Origin: a virus
Reading direction: 5' to 3' (one strand)
Virus record (IMG/VR): IMGVR_UViG_3300024346_000316
Location: 1 to 31,597 of that record
DNA length: 31,597 bases
Under the pieces are notes generated by a model that made no database searches, was not told the DNA's origin, and saw nothing but the letters and a program-made list of their open reading frames with translations. Both the position numbers and the translations under genes were made by a program. Positions 20,682 to 30,306 of the stretch are shown in pieces; positions within the stretch are counted from its first letter, which is position 1, and each line of letters starts with the position of its first letter.

Positions 20682-20843
20682 TTAATCTTCTTTTTTCAGT
20701 AGTGTCCAGATTCCGTAGCCTAAACCAATCCAGGCCATTAGTTTTGCTAAGCCGCCGAACAGTATTACTGAACCGCAAATTCCAATTAGCATAGCACCAT
20801 CCCAAGATGTGCGTTCTTTTACTAGTACTTTAAGATATTTCAT
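20682..20843 (-). CDS. Small two-helix membrane protein
   Basis: This 53-residue ORF begins MKYLKVLVKERTSWDGAMLI. It has two hydrophobic segments (about 17-31 and 35-48) joined by a short loop, with a charged KKED C terminus. It overlaps the DUF1353 gene by 14 nt and ends 3 nt before the large terminase, so it fills what would otherwise be a gap. I recall proteins with the same 'vKeRTSWDGAMLI' start in other marine phages, suggesting a conserved family, but this is memory. Position and topology allow a holin-like or envelope role; nothing proves it. Confidence 0.75.
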   Translation of the reverse strand: MKYLKVLVKERTSWDGAMLIGICGSVILFGGLAKLMAWIGLGYGIWTLLKKED

Positions 20844-21414
20844 GTTGTGTACCTCTCTTTTTATGTCCGTTCCAAGCTACGAAACCTGCAAGACGCAGTG
20901 TCCAGTATGCAAGGTAGTTTAATACTTTAAAACCATTTACTTCAATACAAATATCACGGAATAGTCCGTCCATGTGTTTTTGGTCGCGGTATCCAATAGT
21001 AGTTCCATCTTTCTTCATAAGAGTAGCATACTTATAACCATAGTCATGTACCAAGCCACCCATTAACAGTACTCCAACAGGAGATAGGAATGTTGCTAGA
21101 AACTTAGGAACAGACGCTCCATCGAACTCAAACCCCGCAGGAACTTTATACTCTACACCACTAATACTATAATGGAAGTCTTCGCAGATAACCCACTTAC
21201 GACTACCCATCAACCACATTAAGATACCTTTAAAAAAACCTTTATCTTTTGTTGCTATTGGTAATGGTTGCATCTTTGGCATCTCAGGGTAGCTAAACTG
21301 AATTAAGTCTTCTACTTCTTTATCGCACTTATTTACGATATATCCAATTATAACAAGTACGCCTAGTACAGTCCACTGCCAGAAGGTCATTGCTAAATCA
21401 ATTAACATTTCCAT
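20830..21414 (-). CDS. DUF1353-family protein with N-terminal membrane anchor
   Basis: This 194-residue protein has an N-terminal transmembrane helix (about 9-27, FWQWTVLGVLVIIGYIV). The core shows the DUF1353 pattern: KVPAGFEFDGASVP (near residue 90), then GLVHDYGYKY (near 119) and a Phe/Arg-rich helix, followed by a second hydrophobic region near residues 163-178. The His-Asp of GLVHDYGY and the Asp of FDGASVP are the invariant residues of the family. Its role is not established; members often lie in phage late regions near lysis or tail genes. Start and stop are tightly coupled (TAATG at 21414; 14-nt overlap at 20830). Confidence 0.8.
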   Translation of the reverse strand: MEMLIDLAMTFWQWTVLGVLVIIGYIVNKCDKEVEDLIQFSYPEMPKMQPLPIATKDKGFFKGILMWLMGSRKWVICEDFHYSISGVEYKVPAGFEFDGASVPKFLATFLSPVGVLLMGGLVHDYGYKYATLMKKDGTTIGYRDQKHMDGLFRDICIEVNGFKVLNYLAYWTLRLAGFVAWNGHKKRGTQHEIS

Positions 21415-21560
21415 TATTTCTTCCCCTTCTTTTTACTTTTTTTCTTTTTCTTAAAGCCTGCTTTCATAAAAGAGTATGCTTTCCTAGAGATAGTAGATTT
21501 CTTTTTTGTCCTACTCTTGCCGCTCTTTTTTCTTTTGTTGATATTGGCGTATAAGCTCAT
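21414..21560 (-). CDS. Very lysine-rich 48-residue protein
   Basis: I start this at the ATG at 21560: GGAGGAAG lies just upstream and the start overlaps the previous stop as TAATG. The 48-residue product begins MSLYANINKRKKSGKSR and ends with a run of Lys and Gly. Over a third of residues are basic. The N-terminal 'SLYANIN.kRK..g.S' pattern resembles, from memory, a small conserved protein of marine phages. Binding to nucleic acid or packaging into the virion is plausible from charge alone. It has no membrane segment. Confidence 0.7.
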   Translation of the reverse strand: MSLYANINKRKKSGKSRTKKKSTISRKAYSFMKAGFKKKKKSKKKGKK

Positions 21561-21874
21561 TATTTCTTCCCTCCTACTGCTTCCTTGGCATAAAATGCCG
21601 CTACAATTGCGGCTACCGATACAAAGTAAGTAGGTGCCATTGACCCTAAGGTTTTCTGCGCTTCGTCTAGACCTACAAGACTGGCTAATACTACTGCAAA
21701 AGGATAAAGTAACATTCCGGCTAAAGCGAACCATGCCATGTTACGTTGTGCATCTCGCATTGCATCTGCATCTTCTAGTTCCTTACGTTTTGCTTCAAGG
21801 TACATTGCTTCTTCTGCATCGGAGACTTTACCGTCCCCGTTAGTATCTGCTGGATGAAACTCTTTATCTACCAT
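21560..21874 (-). CDS. Membrane protein with an N-terminal EF-hand-like loop
   Basis: The 104-residue protein has a DTNGDGKVSDAEE loop at residues 10-22. It matches the EF-hand calcium loop, with Asp, Asn, Asp, Lys-Val and a terminal Glu at the expected spacing. A charged helix follows, then two hydrophobic segments (about 47-68 and 80-97). The layout is a short cytoplasmic or periplasmic domain plus two membrane helices, compatible with a holin or a calcium-responsive envelope protein. I recall similar EF-hand membrane proteins in marine phages. It overlaps the upstream gene by 7 nt and the downstream gene as TAATG. Confidence 0.75.
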   Translation of the reverse strand: MVDKEFHPADTNGDGKVSDAEEAMYLEAKRKELEDADAMRDAQRNMAWFALAGMLLYPFAVVLASLVGLDEAQKTLGSMAPTYFVSVAAIVAAFYAKEAVGGKK

Positions 21875-22868: not shown

Positions 22869-23149
22869 CAGGCACCCATGTTAAGAAGTGCTGCTATTAC
22901 TCCTGCTAGGAACATTATAATGGTTCCACCTACTGATAACATACGGCCGTCCATCTTTTGTAAAGTCCCGTCTATTGCATCGAGTCTTGTAAACGTAGTC
23001 TTCCATCTTTCTTCGCACTGAGCTTCATGAATCGCTAAATCTGAAGCGACATGATCAATTTGACGAACAGAATCATGAAACCGTTCAGTGGTATCAGCGT
23101 TCCAGTTAACGTCTGAGGGGGTTTGAGTATTAGGTTGCGTCGTTGCCAT
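22868..23149 (-). CDS. XhlA/holin-accessory-like small membrane protein
   Basis: I start at ATG 23149 (MATTQPNTQ), with GGAAAAACTACTCA upstream; an earlier ATG at 23176 is possible but overlaps the small terminase further. The 93-residue protein has a helical region with HEAQCEERWKTTFTRLDAID followed by one transmembrane helix near the C terminus (SVGGTIIMFLAGVIAALL). A coiled coil with 'hEa.CeerWk....RLd.i' preceding a TM is typical of XhlA/hemolysin-like phage membrane proteins that assist lysis. That relation is by pattern, not alignment. It overlaps the small terminase gene by 20 nt. Confidence 0.6.
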   Translation of the reverse strand: MATTQPNTQTPSDVNWNADTTERFHDSVRQIDHVASDLAIHEAQCEERWKTTFTRLDAIDGTLQKMDGRMLSVGGTIIMFLAGVIAALLNMGA

Positions 23150-23597
23150 TGAGTAGTTTTTCCATGAGCTTGCCATAATTACCCTGACCGAAGGGTACAG
23201 ACTCATTAATCTGTACATTGGTTTGGTTTTTTATGTTGCTTCCTTCGGCTTTAGCAAGATCTGCCTGCGCCTTGATCTCGTCAATACGCATTTTATGAGC
23301 CATTTGTAATAGATCAGCTAAGTCTTTACTAGAGTAGACGCCAGATTCCTGGGCTTCTTCGAGTTTAGATGCGATCATCTCGTCTAATAAGGAACCGATG
23401 TTGTTCTTGTTTCGGTATCCCATATCTAAATATACAGTATCAATGTATTTCTTTACTTCTCGCTTATTCAACACATCTACTACTTGTGATTCGGATACCT
23501 GAAGGTACTCGCATACACCGCGAATGTTGCCGTACTGTAGATAACTATTCGCTATCTCTAGTCCTTCAGGAGAAATTGTAGTTAGTTCTTTTGCCAT
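23130..23597 (-). CDS. terS: Terminase small subunit
   Basis: This 155-residue protein resembles phage small terminases. A predicted helix-turn-helix (residues 10-50: EGLEIANSYLQYGNIRGVCEYLQVSESQVVDVLNKREV) is followed by RNKNNIGSLLDEMIASKLEEA and a helical oligomerisation region with a C-terminal QGNYGKLMEKLL tail. It would recognise the packaging site and load the large subunit. The start ATG lies only about 13 nt from the centre of the -10 of the promoter at 23605-23633, so the mRNA is probably leaderless. It is separated from the large terminase by about 2.4 kb. Confidence 0.75.
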   Translation of the reverse strand: MAKELTTISPEGLEIANSYLQYGNIRGVCEYLQVSESQVVDVLNKREVKKYIDTVYLDMGYRNKNNIGSLLDEMIASKLEEAQESGVYSSKDLADLLQMAHKMRIDEIKAQADLAKAEGSNIKNQTNVQINESVPFGQGNYGKLMEKLLNGNDAT

Positions 23598-23650: not shown

Positions 23651-24109
23651 TTAGTCTGCAAGGGGATTATCAAGTGCTCTTTGCAGTTTCTTGGTAAGAC
23701 GGTCTTCTAATTCTTTCATGTCTCTGTCCGTATCGGATTTTAAAGAGTCACGTTTAGTTTCGAATCTGTCATTTGCTTTATCGATCATTACTCGTACTTT
23801 CTCTTCTGAGTCACGAACTTGATCCTCTACTCTATCTGCTTGCTTTTCGATTGAAATAATATCGTCTCTTAGTCCAGACTTAATATCACGGGTATACTCA
23901 ATTGCTTCATCAAGCTTTAGTTCTATCTGATCATTACGTGCTTCGATTGCACCAGTATCTATATTGGCGATAACTTCTTTCATATCCATATAGTCGTCAT
24001 AAAACTGGAACCCGGCCCATGCCGCCCCACCTAGTGTTGATAATGCTGTAAGCAGTACAACTGCTTTTCCACCTTTGAAGGTCATGCCTCCAAATTCAAA
24101 TTCTGCCAT
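23651..24109 (-). CDS. N-anchored coiled-coil protein (i-spanin-like candidate)
   Basis: The 152-residue protein has an N-terminal transmembrane helix (about 15-34, AVVLLTALSTLGGAAWAGF) after MAEFEFGGMTFKGG. A long highly charged coiled coil (40-145) follows, with many Lys/Glu/Asp/Arg, ending LQRALDNPLAD. The topology (one N-terminal anchor, periplasmic helix) is that of an inner-membrane spanin or other envelope rod. Its 3' end is followed by the small terminase promoter. It is the last gene of the exported-protein cassette and starts by TAATG overlap. No outer-membrane lipoprotein partner is obvious nearby. Confidence 0.65.
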   Translation of the reverse strand: MAEFEFGGMTFKGGKAVVLLTALSTLGGAAWAGFQFYDDYMDMKEVIANIDTGAIEARNDQIELKLDEAIEYTRDIKSGLRDDIISIEKQADRVEDQVRDSEEKVRVMIDKANDRFETKRDSLKSDTDRDMKELEDRLTKKLQRALDNPLAD

Positions 24110-24570
24110 TATTTCACTACCTCAATTTCATCTACGAAACTTAAATTCCTGAGATTCTTGATCTCTTGCTTTAGCTTTTCAACTTCCATCCTTTTAACTT
24201 GGAGTTCTAACTCATACAGTGAGTTACAGTTGATACGTTCTTTCGGTCCACCGATGGGAATATTTATCTTAGCGTATACTCCCACATCTGAGACTTGGTT
24301 TTGAGGAGCCATTATAAATTCGCTAGGATTATTATTGTATACGTCATTATAAGGATTACTAGTATTAGTATTATTGTTTAGAAAACCAACCACTCCAAAC
24401 TCAAAATTAGTTGCCGCTCCGATCGCATTCTGGCATTCAAAGTTTCCTGCACGAATCCTATCAGAAGCATAAGTTTGAGGAGAGTTTGGCAAATTCAAAT
24501 TTAAGGAACTCGACTCTCCCCAAGCCCTGAAGCCCACACACACTAGTACTACTATTAACAAATTTTTCAT
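24109..24570 (-). CDS. Secreted protein of unknown function (exported cassette)
   Basis: The 153-residue protein has a Sec signal peptide (MKNLLIVVLVCVGFRAWG, cleavage expected before ESSS). The mature part begins with a Ser/Asn-rich segment (SLNLNLPNSPQTY), then IRAGNFECQNAIGAATNFEFGV and an Asn-rich stretch (about 68-85). An AKINIPIGGPKERINCNSLYELEL motif precedes a C-terminal charged helix (QVKRMEVEKLKQEIKNL). Two Cys may form a disulfide. The domain order (Gly/Asn-rich strands, 'iPiGGpkeRInC..ly.LEL', helix) resembles, in my recollection, a conserved family in marine phage exported-protein clusters. No enzyme motif. Confidence 0.7.
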   Translation of the reverse strand: MKNLLIVVLVCVGFRAWGESSSLNLNLPNSPQTYASDRIRAGNFECQNAIGAATNFEFGVVGFLNNNTNTSNPYNDVYNNNPSEFIMAPQNQVSDVGVYAKINIPIGGPKERINCNSLYELELQVKRMEVEKLKQEIKNLRNLSFVDEIEVVK

Positions 24571-24574
24571 AATA

Positions 24575-24949
24575 TCACTTGATCTTTGAACAAATCCTCG
24601 ATGCTATAATTGAAGGGTCTCGCACGCTACTTAATATCTTTGACTTGGAACAGATATAGTGCGCTCTCTTTGTATCTCTTTTATGTAAATAAATCTCTAC
24701 AAGTTTCTTGTCGAGGTGTCGTACTTTTAGGAGAGAAGGTGTTGAAACAAAAGGTACCTTCTTCCAGTCTTTATCAAACACTCCAATGGAATAATAACTT
24801 ATTTCTTTTCTAGCATTGAACAGTTCCATTTTGGTGGTATATATTCCAACAATGTGAGACGGCTTAAGCTTTGGATATGTTGGCGTCCATTGGTGGGCAC
24901 TTGCGTACCCACCGGTAAAGACTAAAACCAATATAATAAGCATTCTCAT
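24575..24949 (-). CDS. Secreted protein of unknown function (exported cassette)
   Basis: The 124-residue protein starts at ATG 24949, overlapping the upstream stop as TAATG; a GTG five codons earlier is an alternative. The signal peptide MRMLIILVLVFTGGYASA should be cut before HQWTP. The mature protein is beta-rich with HQWTPTYPKLKPS, VGIYTTKMELFNARKEISYYSIGVFDKDWKK and a C-terminal Cys pair (HYICSKS...RICSKIK) that could form a disulfide. The 'v.g.y.tkm.LfN.RkeI.YY.i.VfD' pattern recalls small periplasmic proteins that accompany fimbrial genes. The next gene upstream resembles a fimbrial subunit, so a chaperone or anchor role is possible but unproven. Confidence 0.65.
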   Translation of the reverse strand: MRMLIILVLVFTGGYASAHQWTPTYPKLKPSHIVGIYTTKMELFNARKEISYYSIGVFDKDWKKVPFVSTPSLLKVRHLDKKLVEIYLHKRDTKRAHYICSKSKILSSVRDPSIIASRICSKIK

Positions 24950-25449
24950 TACTGGGCGATACACTCCGCTGTTACAACTGCTGAGTATGATCCTGCAGGA
25001 AATGCTTTGTTATACCCGTAAGTTGCTTCAGAAGATATATCAAACCATACGCTTCCTGCAATACTTAAAGGAAATTCAGTAGTATTATTATATACTACCT
25101 TATTTGTATTAAATACGGACATACCTGCATCTGACATTTGGTTGGCAACAGTAGAACCTGTCCAATTAACAACATCCCCGGCTAAAGAAGGGCTGGAAGT
25201 AAAACTAATTGGAGTTGAAATTCTTGCATTATAAGCATTCGCTGTAATAATATCATAGCGAATGATAGGGAGTACTCCGCCTTCAGAGCTAACAGTGGTT
25301 AGTTTAGTTGCGGAGGGGTTACCATAAACACCATCTGTGTCTGTTGTAACAATACATTTAGAGGCTACGGTACCTGAAATAGGAGTGGTTGCTGTCGCTA
25401 GTACGGGAGCGGCCATTATGGTGGCTAGTATAATTAGTTTATTTTTCAT
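24949..25449 (-). CDS. Secreted fimbrial-like / spore-coat-U-like beta protein
   Basis: The 166-residue protein has a signal peptide (MKNKLIILATIMAAPVLATA, cut before TTPISG). The mature sequence starts SGTVASKCIVTTDTDGVYGNPSA and continues as Ser/Thr/Gly-rich strands, ending SYSAVVTAECIAQ. Two Cys, near each end, could form the single disulfide found in many fimbrial subunits. The size, mostly-beta character and C-terminal alternating hydrophobic strand fit a pilin-like or SCPU/DUF4402-like extracellular protein. Exact family is unsure. A small 5-bp hairpin (25467-25480) lies in the 42-nt gap before the ATG, with AGGAA upstream of the start. Confidence 0.65.
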   Translation of the reverse strand: MKNKLIILATIMAAPVLATATTPISGTVASKCIVTTDTDGVYGNPSATKLTTVSSEGGVLPIIRYDIITANAYNARISTPISFTSSPSLAGDVVNWTGSTVANQMSDAGMSVFNTNKVVYNNTTEFPLSIAGSVWFDISSEATYGYNKAFPAGSYSAVVTAECIAQ

Positions 25450-25491
25450 AGTTTAAATAGTTCCTAGTGCTGTTAAGCACCCTGTTGATAA

Positions 25492-26361
25492 TTATTTATC
25501 ATATTGGAGATCTAGCATTTCTTCATGTTTGCGTTGTTGGGCTAAACCTAACCGCAAAGCTTTTTTATTATTGGGTATAAATCCATCTTTCAACATCGGT
25601 ACATCTTCATACTGTCCGCCCTTGAGAGCAGACTTATAAGAAGCTGGTATAAAATTCATTGCAAATAAGGCTTGCTCTTGTAGACTAGCAGCCTCTGACA
25701 TTGCTGAAGCGTTTAAGCCTCCTAACATCTTTTGGAGGTCTACTTTGACTTTCTTTTTTCTTTGTTTGCGATCGTACTCTTCTTGTTCTTTTTGTTGATC
25801 GAGCTTATATTGCTTTTCCATCTCCAAACGTAAGAACTCTTCTTGCTGCGGATCTACGTACTCTTGGGGCAGTATATCTGCTAAAACGTAAGGTTCTTGG
25901 TATCCTTCACAAGAAGGATCTGTCTGTGGGTCAAAGCATGTATCATACCTATAAGTATAAACTACGGAGGGATCTAACACACTTCCTATGCCTTCGATCT
26001 CGATAGAGCCGTTGCCCCAGTAGTCTATAGGAATATCTCCTACAGGTATTGCTTTATAGATTGTGTTACCTTGAAGTCCAGACCAATCATCTGTTTCTCG
26101 AAATATGTAACCATCTCCTAAAGCATTCTCGTTCTGTACATGGACGAGCATTGGATCATCAATATTTTTCACTGCCGTATAACGATAAATAACATTCCCC
26201 ACAGTAAGACCAGCTTGCTGCGGAAGAATGTTTTGCATTACCCAGTTATAACCAAAGTTAGCAGCATTTGTAGTGCTGCCGTAAACTTCTTCAGAGTAGG
26301 AGTAAGAGGAGCAGACTAGCGACACCGCCAGTAGCCCAAAGTGTCTGTTTAGTAGTTTCAT
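25492..26361 (-). CDS. Large secreted protein with coiled-coil region (exported cassette)
   Basis: The 289-residue protein starts at ATG 26361, with GAGGAG seven bases upstream, although it lies 71 nt inside the upstream gene. The signal peptide MKLLNRHFGLLAVSLVCSSYSYS is followed by EEVYGSTTNAANFGYNWVM. Residues 30-150 are beta-rich with aromatic residues and two Cys (DTCFDPQTDPSCEGY). A Gln/Glu/Lys coiled coil (about 168-205) follows, then a helical C terminus rich in Met and Lys (MLGGLNASAMSEAASLQEQ). No family recognised. Export and the coiled coil suggest a periplasmic or surface assembly role. Confidence 0.7.
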   Translation of the reverse strand: MKLLNRHFGLLAVSLVCSSYSYSEEVYGSTTNAANFGYNWVMQNILPQQAGLTVGNVIYRYTAVKNIDDPMLVHVQNENALGDGYIFRETDDWSGLQGNTIYKAIPVGDIPIDYWGNGSIEIEGIGSVLDPSVVYTYRYDTCFDPQTDPSCEGYQEPYVLADILPQEYVDPQQEEFLRLEMEKQYKLDQQKEQEEYDRKQRKKKVKVDLQKMLGGLNASAMSEAASLQEQALFAMNFIPASYKSALKGGQYEDVPMLKDGFIPNNKKALRLGLAQQRKHEEMLDLQYDK

Positions 26362-26851
26362 CCATACTCTCCTCTTCTTTTTCTTCTACAGGCTGCTCTG
26401 CAGTATGAGTTTCCCAGCCAGCTTTTGCATCTTCGCCGATCATACCATCATAAGGGCAAGGTGTTCCTGCCATTAACATTGCATCAAATACACGCTTGTC
26501 CTGACACATTACTGATACTGCTGCGACTTTCATGCCCATATCGTAAAGAGTCTTTGCATTCTTCAGCTTTTCACAATTCATATCTCTCATAGTAGTACCC
26601 ATGGAGATACCCAGTATCTGAGTCTGTACTGCACCCGCAACTCCTACTGTACATAAGTCCGAGTTTGATATATTCATCGTCGGTGTAATTGCCGAAGGTG
26701 GTGGAGACTTTAACGTAGTAGTTGATGTACTATTTACGTCACTTCTCGTTGTACTATCAGTAGTAATTACGTCTCCAGGTGTTACAGTAGTATCATCCTG
26801 TGCATGCACTAACGAAGACGCTAAAAGTAATGGAAGTAATATCTTTTTCAT
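26291..26851 (-). CDS. Secreted/anchored cysteine-containing protein (first gene of exported cassette)
   Basis: The 186-residue protein is the first gene after the promoter at 26883-26911. The signal peptide MKKILLPLLLASSLVHA precedes QDDTTV and a Thr/Ser/Pro-rich stalk (about 20-55). The core has SDLCTVGVAGAVQTQILGI, MNCEKLKNAKTLYDMGMKVAAVSVMCQ and FDAMLMAGTPCPYDGMIG: four Cys likely in two disulfides. An acidic segment and a C-terminal hydrophobic anchor (TLWATGGVASLLLLLLL) end the protein. The 'LC..gvsgavQtqilGi' and 'aGtPCPYdG.iG' motifs resemble a family I recall from marine phages. Function is unknown. The C-terminal anchor is encoded over the next gene's signal peptide. Confidence 0.72.
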   Translation of the reverse strand: MKKILLPLLLASSLVHAQDDTTVTPGDVITTDSTTRSDVNSTSTTTLKSPPPSAITPTMNISNSDLCTVGVAGAVQTQILGISMGTTMRDMNCEKLKNAKTLYDMGMKVAAVSVMCQDKRVFDAMLMAGTPCPYDGMIGEDAKAGWETHTAEQPVEEKEEESMDETTKQTLWATGGVASLLLLLLL

Positions 26852-26882: not shown

Positions 26883-26911
26883 AGTATACTACGAATAAAG
26901 CAAATTGTCAA
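26883..26911 (-). promoter_or_regulatory. Sigma70-type promoter for the exported-protein cassette
   Basis: TTGACA (26911-26906), 17-bp spacer, TATACT (26888-26883) on the minus strand, preceded by AAAAAAAGTTC. The upstream 11 bases are identical to those of the tail promoter at 11490-11518. It would start transcription near 26876, 25 nt before the first cassette gene. Confidence 0.86.
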
Positions 26912-29934: not shown

Positions 29935-30306
29935 TTAAAAGGATTTACTAAGTAATATTTGATTATTAACAACTACTAAAGTAGCTCCAGTATTCATAAT
30001 ATTTAGAGCTAGGCCACGCTCTTTCTCACTGAGGTCGCGTCCTAACAGGTTGTATACTAATGCATTAGTTGCGGCTTTAACCAGTAAGAGTTTTCCTACA
30101 GAAGGTTTTGAACCGAAAATAGGGTTGCCTTCTGCAAGACCGCACTCTGGAGTACATTTTATTACTTTGTAAGTTTGTGCAGTATCTATCAACTGCATTG
30201 ATAGATAGTACTTGTACTTATTCTGCTCGCTCTCAGTCCACGTGCCGTAGGTGTTAGTTGCACACCCTGTCGATAATAATACTATAATTATAAATAATTT
30301 TTTCAA
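29935..30306 (-). CDS. Outer- or inner-membrane lipoprotein
   Basis: This 123-residue protein has a lipoprotein signal (MKKLFIIIVLLSTGC): the lipobox LSTGC places the lipidated Cys at residue 15. The start codon is TTG with AAGGAG six bases upstream. The mature part contains DTAQTYKVIKCTPECGLAEGNPIFGSKPS and a C-terminal hydrophobic region (LALNIMNTGATLVVVNNQI). Two further Cys could form a disulfide. The 'D..qT....C....aeGNP..g..Ps' pattern resembles a small membrane-protein family of unknown function. It has its own promoter and is the first leftward gene, so it may be expressed early. Superinfection exclusion is a possible role for such proteins, but nothing proves it. Confidence 0.75.
   Translation of the reverse strand: MKKLFIIIVLLSTGCATNTYGTWTESEQNKYKYYLSMQLIDTAQTYKVIKCTPECGLAEGNPIFGSKPSVGKLLLVKAATNALVYNLLGRDLSEKERGLALNIMNTGATLVVVNNQILLSKSF

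Follow-up and report, generated by a model that had tools for sequence, protein, structure and literature searches.

A conserved phage cassette of exported proteins, two with predicted pilus-type folds

Gene layout and conservation of the cassette

The viral record IMGVR_UViG_3300024346_000316 of IMG/VR (31,597 nucleotides; this whole 31.6-kb stretch is hereafter called the window) carries on its minus strand a compact cassette of five genes, E1 to E5, which encode proteins with predicted signal peptides, followed by E6, which encodes a predicted membrane-anchored coiled-coil protein. Genes for tail-fibre assembly and tail fibres lie upstream of the cassette, and the left end of the record cuts through one tail gene that extends past it, so that the window is probably incomplete. 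The features of the locus that bear on the cassette are the following.

E1, 26291-26851, minus strand: open reading frame (ORF); signal peptide, Ser/Thr-rich stretch, four invariant Cys in the core, hydrophobic C-terminus
E2, 25492-26361, minus strand: ORF; signal peptide, N-terminal domain with conserved 'FRETDDWSG', charged linker, conserved C-terminal tail '..LH..M...QY'
E3, 24949-25449, minus strand: pilin-like subunit; Cys32 and Cys163 invariant; model ends in a C-terminal strand
E3 N-terminal donor-strand-like motif, 25354-25386, minus strand: residues 22-32, V/T-P-I-x-G-x-V-x-S-K-C
E4, 24575-24949, minus strand: candidate single-domain PapD-like chaperone; could instead start farther upstream, at the GTG at 24964
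E5, 24109-24570, minus strand: signal peptide, 'SLNLNLP' N-terminus, beta-hairpin-like 'GVYAKINIPIGG', coiled-coil C-terminus
E6, 23651-24109, minus strand: N-terminal transmembrane helix and coiled coil ending 'LDNPL'
Small terminase subunit (TerS), 23130-23597, downstream of E6: phrog_3802, E 1.8e-36
Cassette promoter, 26883-26911, minus strand: TTGACA-17-TATACT, 11/12 against the consensus

The ORFs of E1 and E2 overlap by 71 bp, and the E3/E4 and E5/E6 junctions each consist of a shared TAATG, an arrangement suggestive of coupled translation. Judged from the sequence, the most likely start of E4 is the ATG at 24949, which shares its TAATG with the E3 stop and whose Met is nearly invariant. 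A promoter does stand ahead of E1, as an initial annotation of this DNA had stated, but the description of it as perfect does not hold, since it scores 11/12; three other sites in the region score 12/12. Sites scoring at least 11/12 were present upstream of E1 in 28 of 106 cassette loci of relatives, compared with none upstream of E2 (0/117 loci) or E3 (0/123), and never upstream of any of E2-E5.

Relatives were collected as viral contigs found with E1, E5, E3 and, later, divergent E4 queries, followed by iterated profile scans, which entails a selection effect in that all cassette loci were reached through E1, E3, E4 or E5. In 89 of 89 non-redundant complete viral cassettes E1-E5 are contiguous and in the same order, with gaps of at most 120 bp between neighbours and with E6 normally next, even though identity among the cassettes drops to ~43%. 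This synteny is far beyond chance. The order of the block is constant while its flanks vary: TerS/T7 stand before or after it, and genes of the holin-like 'Hol' family or unrelated genes adjoin it. Moreover, pairwise identities correlate at 0.62-0.89 among E1-E5 compared with 0.42-0.53 against the large terminase, indicating that the genes of the block tend to evolve together and to move together. The view that the genes form a conserved multi-gene assembly and not loose morons is thus borne out by the synteny, and their constant company in other genomes answers the objection that they might not co-occur there.

Neither Pfam nor PHROGs supplied a named function for E1-E6; E5 matches phrog_37374 and E1 phrog_20531, both families without an assigned function. 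Profile searches of PDB sequences yielded zero matches for the cassette proteins, and tblastn gave no match in sequenced phages for the E2, E3 and E4 proteins. A search of plasmids for cassette relatives was likewise negative (zero matches). A bacterial origin is not established, the matches to genome contigs being mostly phage-like contigs in metagenome-assembled genomes and single-cell assemblies.

Export signals and predicted folds

Signal peptides were called with a home-made heuristic based on hydrophobicity, charge and an AxA motif, not with SignalP. Among the minus-strand genes of the window of at least 80 aa, the only positives were E1-E5 and one unrelated lipoprotein gene (29935-30306). 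The calls extend to 85-94% of the members of each family (124/132 for E1, 106/124 for E2, 107/116 for E3, 101/108 for E4 and 97/105 for E5), compared with 0/49 for TerS, 0/63 for the large terminase TerL, 1/77 for Hol and 1/29 for the APC family under the same heuristic. Five consecutive exported proteins, as initially annotated, are therefore confirmed at the level of these calls, and so is the inner-membrane coiled-coil protein that follows them, E6 having an N-terminal transmembrane (TM) helix and a coiled coil.

Monomers of E3 and E4 were modelled with AlphaFold2 from family alignments and compared with the PDB using Foldseek. The E4 model (mean predicted local distance difference test score, pLDDT, 90.4) is nearest to the first domain of PapD-family chaperones (FaeE, PapD, DraB, Caf1M and FimC; probability 1.00, TM-score 0.51-0.63), which make up most of its best 36 PDB matches (E 1e-4 to 8e-4). 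Two invariant Cys lie in strands F and G (C105 and C125, counted from the GTG at 24964), an arrangement found in FGL chaperones such as Caf1M, and the protein ends at strand G. E4 has one domain only (124 aa including the signal peptide), not the two immunoglobulin (Ig) domains of PapD. The best PDB match of the E3 model (pLDDT 90.0) is the PapG pilin domain (E 5e-3), with CfaB, FimF, FimG and CsuA/B also listed among other beta-sandwich proteins. Its C-terminal strand lies at the end of the protein, as expected of a subunit without strand G; judged from strand order in the model, E3 probably has none.

At the N-terminus of chaperone-usher pilins, hydrophobic residues alternate on either side of an invariant Gly, and a Cys follows. 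This donor-strand pattern was present in 9 of 12 E. coli K-12 pilins and in 86 of 127 E3 N-termini, a count that measures conservation among homologous sequences and does not amount to 86 separate observations, compared with 7 of 2,091 other genes of the same loci and 0.9% of shuffled E3 N-termini. In the E3 alignment I24, G26, V28 and C32 are invariant in character. Furthermore, the E3 profile aligned with E. coli pilins at 70% in hhalign, exactly on the donor-strand segment, whereas other pairs gave 0.5-22%. By fold match, motif and profile match, then, E3 resembles a chaperone-usher pilin, that is, an incomplete Ig fold with an N-terminal donor strand, and in the models its neighbour E4 looks like the periplasmic chaperone of E3. 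Of the suggestion that one of the proteins is a fimbrial or SCPU-type subunit, the fimbria-like half fits the E3 model and motif; membership of the SCPU family does not, the SCPU and Fimbrial Pfam cut-offs having been reached neither by 49 E3 members nor by the jumbo-phage members or those of viral contig L310, both described below. Both folds predicted here, E3 and E4, are pilus-type and not the unrelated virion or enzymatic folds that would speak against an envelope role. A weak FimH_man-bind match of E3 (E 0.036) was not used as evidence.

A trio and a core with separate distributions

When the E4 model was compared by Foldseek with predicted viral proteins (BFVD), a 116-aa protein of Klebsiella phage Eowyn ranked third; an E5 relative had earlier been found in this phage and in only two other records. 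Length and position make it probable that the match is gp39 (116 aa, E4-like), which is directly followed in Eowyn by the E5 homologue gp40 (E5 profile E 2.6e-11, hhalign 97%) and by gp41, an exported pilin-like protein of 167 aa. Chaperone-like, E5 and pilin-like genes stand side by side in 24 phage records, including the Klebsiella jumbo phages Eowyn, Miami, KPN8, YC1 and FBKp24, a Raoultella phage, a Stenotrophomonas phage and the 147-kb Erwinia phage pEp_SNUABM_01. The trio is also present in Vibrio phages 2.275 and D479, and on the 172-kb viral contig L310 (3621-6083) E4-like and E5-like genes precede three tandem pilin-like genes. In comparisons with the window families, the E4-like profile scored 94% over 109 columns and the E5-like profile 99%. 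The Vibrio-type pilin-like profile scored 93% over 119 columns against E. coli pilins and 85% against the window E3, on the signal peptide and donor-strand segment, while the other window proteins reached at most 1.1% against the pilin profile; the 99.8% between Eowyn-type and Vibrio-type pilin-like profiles is inflated by the presence of the Vibrio 2.275 sequence in both. The most conserved parts of E5 are the hairpin-like segment and the coiled coil.

The recurrence of E3-, E4- and E5-like genes elsewhere indicates that this trio is a separate functional unit, joined with an E1-E2-E6 core in the lineage of the window. In jumbo and Vibrio phages the trio stands alone; in the former it sits among accessory genes. 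In Vibrio phage D479 (L311:1-4851) it lies closely downstream of rIIA-rIIB, which in T4-like phages make up the region of lysis inhibition and exclusion. The E5 copy of contig L310 has a lipoprotein-like signal (LPAM_1, E 0.0015).

The core has a distribution of its own. The E1 core domain matches phrog_20531 of the N4-like Achromobacter phage JWAlpha (E 9.7e-15), where it occurs alone, without E2-E6. Homologues of E1 are found in the pelagiphages HTVC115P, HTVC202P, HTVC023P, HTVC033P, Baldr and Mosig, the roseophages CRP-207 and CRP-810, an uncultured Mediterranean phage and others; in these phages the next gene encodes another protein, mostly a larger one, followed in most lineages by an E6 relative, and E3-E5 are lacking. 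Among 80 loci retrieved with the HTVC115P protein, E1 and E6 occurred together in 60, usually with one protein of 400-800 aa ('BIG') between them, and E3 and E4 in none. The C-terminus of BIG aligns with the C-terminal tail of E2 (hhalign 90%), so that E1, an E2-type protein and E6 form a core that exists without the trio and in which E6 accompanies E1 in most lineages. The cassette accordingly stands as a conserved assembly, as the initial annotation proposed, but not as a single five-gene unit: it combines this core with the trio. In pelagiphages and roseophages the core often lies just upstream of endolysin and holin genes. Modules of E1, an acidic exported protein of 400-800 aa and E6 were seen in pelagiphage-like genomes (L169:6881-9999 and L233:6962-11066), and in one pelagiphage-like lineage the module directly precedes a lysozyme gene and a holin gene with three TM segments.

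Proposed assembly and alternative explanations

The folds, export and gene linkage of the cassette are well supported. With confidence and doubt about evenly matched, we read it as a phage-encoded envelope assembly that remodels or shields the cell surface, with E4 as chaperone, E3 as donor-strand subunit, E5 as anchor or cap and E1-E2-E6 as scaffold. E4, as a one-domain PapD-type chaperone, would capture E3 in the periplasm by lending it strand G; E3, with its incomplete Ig fold, would then replace the E4 strand with the N-terminal strand supplied by a second E3 or by E5, and the exported hairpin and coiled-coil protein E5 might take the place of an usher by anchoring or capping the fibre. 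E1 and E2, together with membrane-anchored E6, could provide a phage-specific scaffold that links the inner membrane to the outer layers. The envelope of the infected cell would thereby gain a fibre, cap or coat, expressed from a promoter of its own beside tail and packaging genes. The role of this structure would most likely be surface remodelling or shielding, in the service of exclusion or adhesion, and possibly also loosening of the envelope for release. Donor-strand assembly, E5 as the anchor, the timing of expression and the physiological role are what we infer from the fold, export and linkage results.

A broader proposal is more tentative, our confidence in it falling a little short of even: an usherless chaperone-pilin pathway that builds donor-strand fibres may be common to unrelated marine tailed phages, enterobacterial jumbo and V5-like phages and Vibrio jumbo phages, resting in the marine phages on the trans-envelope scaffold E1-E2-E6. 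If so, lytic phages would own a minimal pilus-type route, usherless and with a one-domain chaperone, which they use on a host soon to be destroyed. Such a route would amount to a new means of viral host remodelling, carried by many marine phages and some jumbo phages of gut-type bacteria, and would explain the roles of six abundant marine-phage families now labelled 'hypothetical'. It would also define a trans-envelope module (E1-E2-E6) common to phages of the most abundant ocean bacteria and provide the simplest known chaperone-pilin pair for study. As the trio occurs in cultured phages of tractable hosts, the question is directly testable.

Several results weigh against such an assembly. The usher family PF00577 was not found in the records of 11 relatives or in 8 jumbo- and Vibrio-type records, with E. 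coli as positive control, which counts against a fibre that would have to cross the outer membrane; a weak usher-like match in one record was dismissed, as it was below the cut-off and contained two stops. The E4 model also matches MSP domains, which have the same fold, and the sequence of E4 does not identify it as a PapD, the E4 profile scoring only 0.5-2% against E. coli chaperones in hhalign. E3 reaches a modest TM-score of about 0.3-0.5 to pilins, and has its second Cys at the C-terminus and not in strand B. The PapD_N, pilin and SCPU Pfam families were all unmatched at the sequence level.

Chaperone-usher pili (type 1, P and FGL systems such as Caf1M-Caf1) are nonetheless a close comparison. 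The cassette shares with them an exported PapD-like fold with an F-G Cys pair (E4), an adjacent pilin-like subunit (E3) with a hydrophobic-x-hydrophobic-x-Gly-x-hydrophobic donor strand and a Cys, and a compact co-directional operon. It differs in being phage-encoded, in the usher not found, in a one-domain chaperone ending at strand G, in the near-C-terminal second Cys of E3, in its partners E5 and E1/E2/E6 and in lacking a Pfam-level match. The strict definition of a chaperone-usher system does not cover the cassette, which may function in the manner of the chaperone-pilin half of such a system. Some pelagiphages carry a multi-gene curli (type VIII secretion) set that moves between phage families (PMC9599517), a precedent for a marine phage with a multi-gene fibre-secretion set. 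Curli, however, use CsgG, CsgF and CsgA-B, whereas the E1-E6 module has Ig-type folds, and a curli identity was rejected because CsgG was found in 0 of 36 module-bearing records, with positive controls. In the open-licence literature we found no description of a phage chaperone-pilin system or of the present module.

An unlikely but substantial alternative is that the module is a lysis machine that replaces the usual spanin and breaks the outer membrane when infection ends, with E6 as an i-spanin-like protein and E1 and E2 (with E3-E5) as periplasmic and outer-membrane partners. The topology of E6, with an N-terminal TM helix and a predicted periplasmic coiled coil, does recall two-component spanins (Rz/Rz1), and ~13% of surveyed phages are without a known spanin (PMC6139136). 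In the stretch 0-3 kb downstream of E6, endolysin genes are over-represented (26 of 376 kilobase windows compared with 13 of 1,083, odds ratio 6.1), a count that is biased and indicative only, since the profiles were built from families near E1. Some core-type loci read E1-BIG-E6-x-x-lysozyme-holin, and at 59 loci the Hol family (EF-hand and two TM segments; 21560-21874 on the minus strand of the window), which is without a Pfam or PHROG name and possibly a holin, lies downstream of E6 on the same strand. On these neighbours, a lysis role for the core is possible. On the other hand, six proteins stand here against the two of Rz/Rz1, E6 has no Rz match in PHROGs, there is no overlapping o-spanin lipoprotein, and a lipobox is present in 34 of 128 E2 sequences and absent from the window copy. 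A separate Rz-like spanin (phrog_739, E 3.9e-8) occurs in 7 module-bearing loci, and in larger genomes the lysozyme gene lies roughly 5-40 kb from the module. The jumbo-phage trio is not beside an annotated endolysin, and its setting among accessory genes, once near rII, leads us to rate remodelling or exclusion above lysis for the trio.

It is rather improbable that E3 and E4 are secreted Ig-fold proteins that act as exported effectors, such as inhibitors of host envelope enzymes or receptors, and form no fibre, their likeness to pilins and chaperones reflecting only a common fold. The Ig fold is indeed widespread, the TM-scores of E3 are modest and Pfam-level homology is lacking; yet of two adjacent proteins one independently matches chaperones and the other pilins, the donor-strand motif is invariant, the pairing recurs in unrelated phages with up to three tandem pilin-like genes, and the Vibrio members match pilins over the full length of the profile at 93%. 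That E1-E5 are virion or adsorption components with signal-like N-termini, as their position between tail-fibre and packaging genes might suggest, is very improbable. Cleavable-type signal peptides occur in five consecutive families and homologous trios lie outside tail clusters; moreover, in the portion of the JWAlpha virion analysis available to us, the one band from outside the structural cluster is an Ig-like (Big_2) protein and the E1 homologue is not named.

Several further genes around the cassette were recorded. The gene at 29935-30306 (minus strand), near the tail-fibre genes, encodes a lipoprotein-like product of 123 aa with the lipobox 'LSTGC'. Between this gene and the tail-fibre genes, just downstream of the former and upstream of the latter, stands a separate 12/12 promoter (29882-29854). 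A DUF1353 protein with an N-terminal TM segment is encoded at 20830-21414 (minus strand), between Hol and the large terminase, and is kept in many relatives. At several loci (L186:11941-12699, L184 and L070) a class 3 lipase gene (PF01764) follows the cassette.

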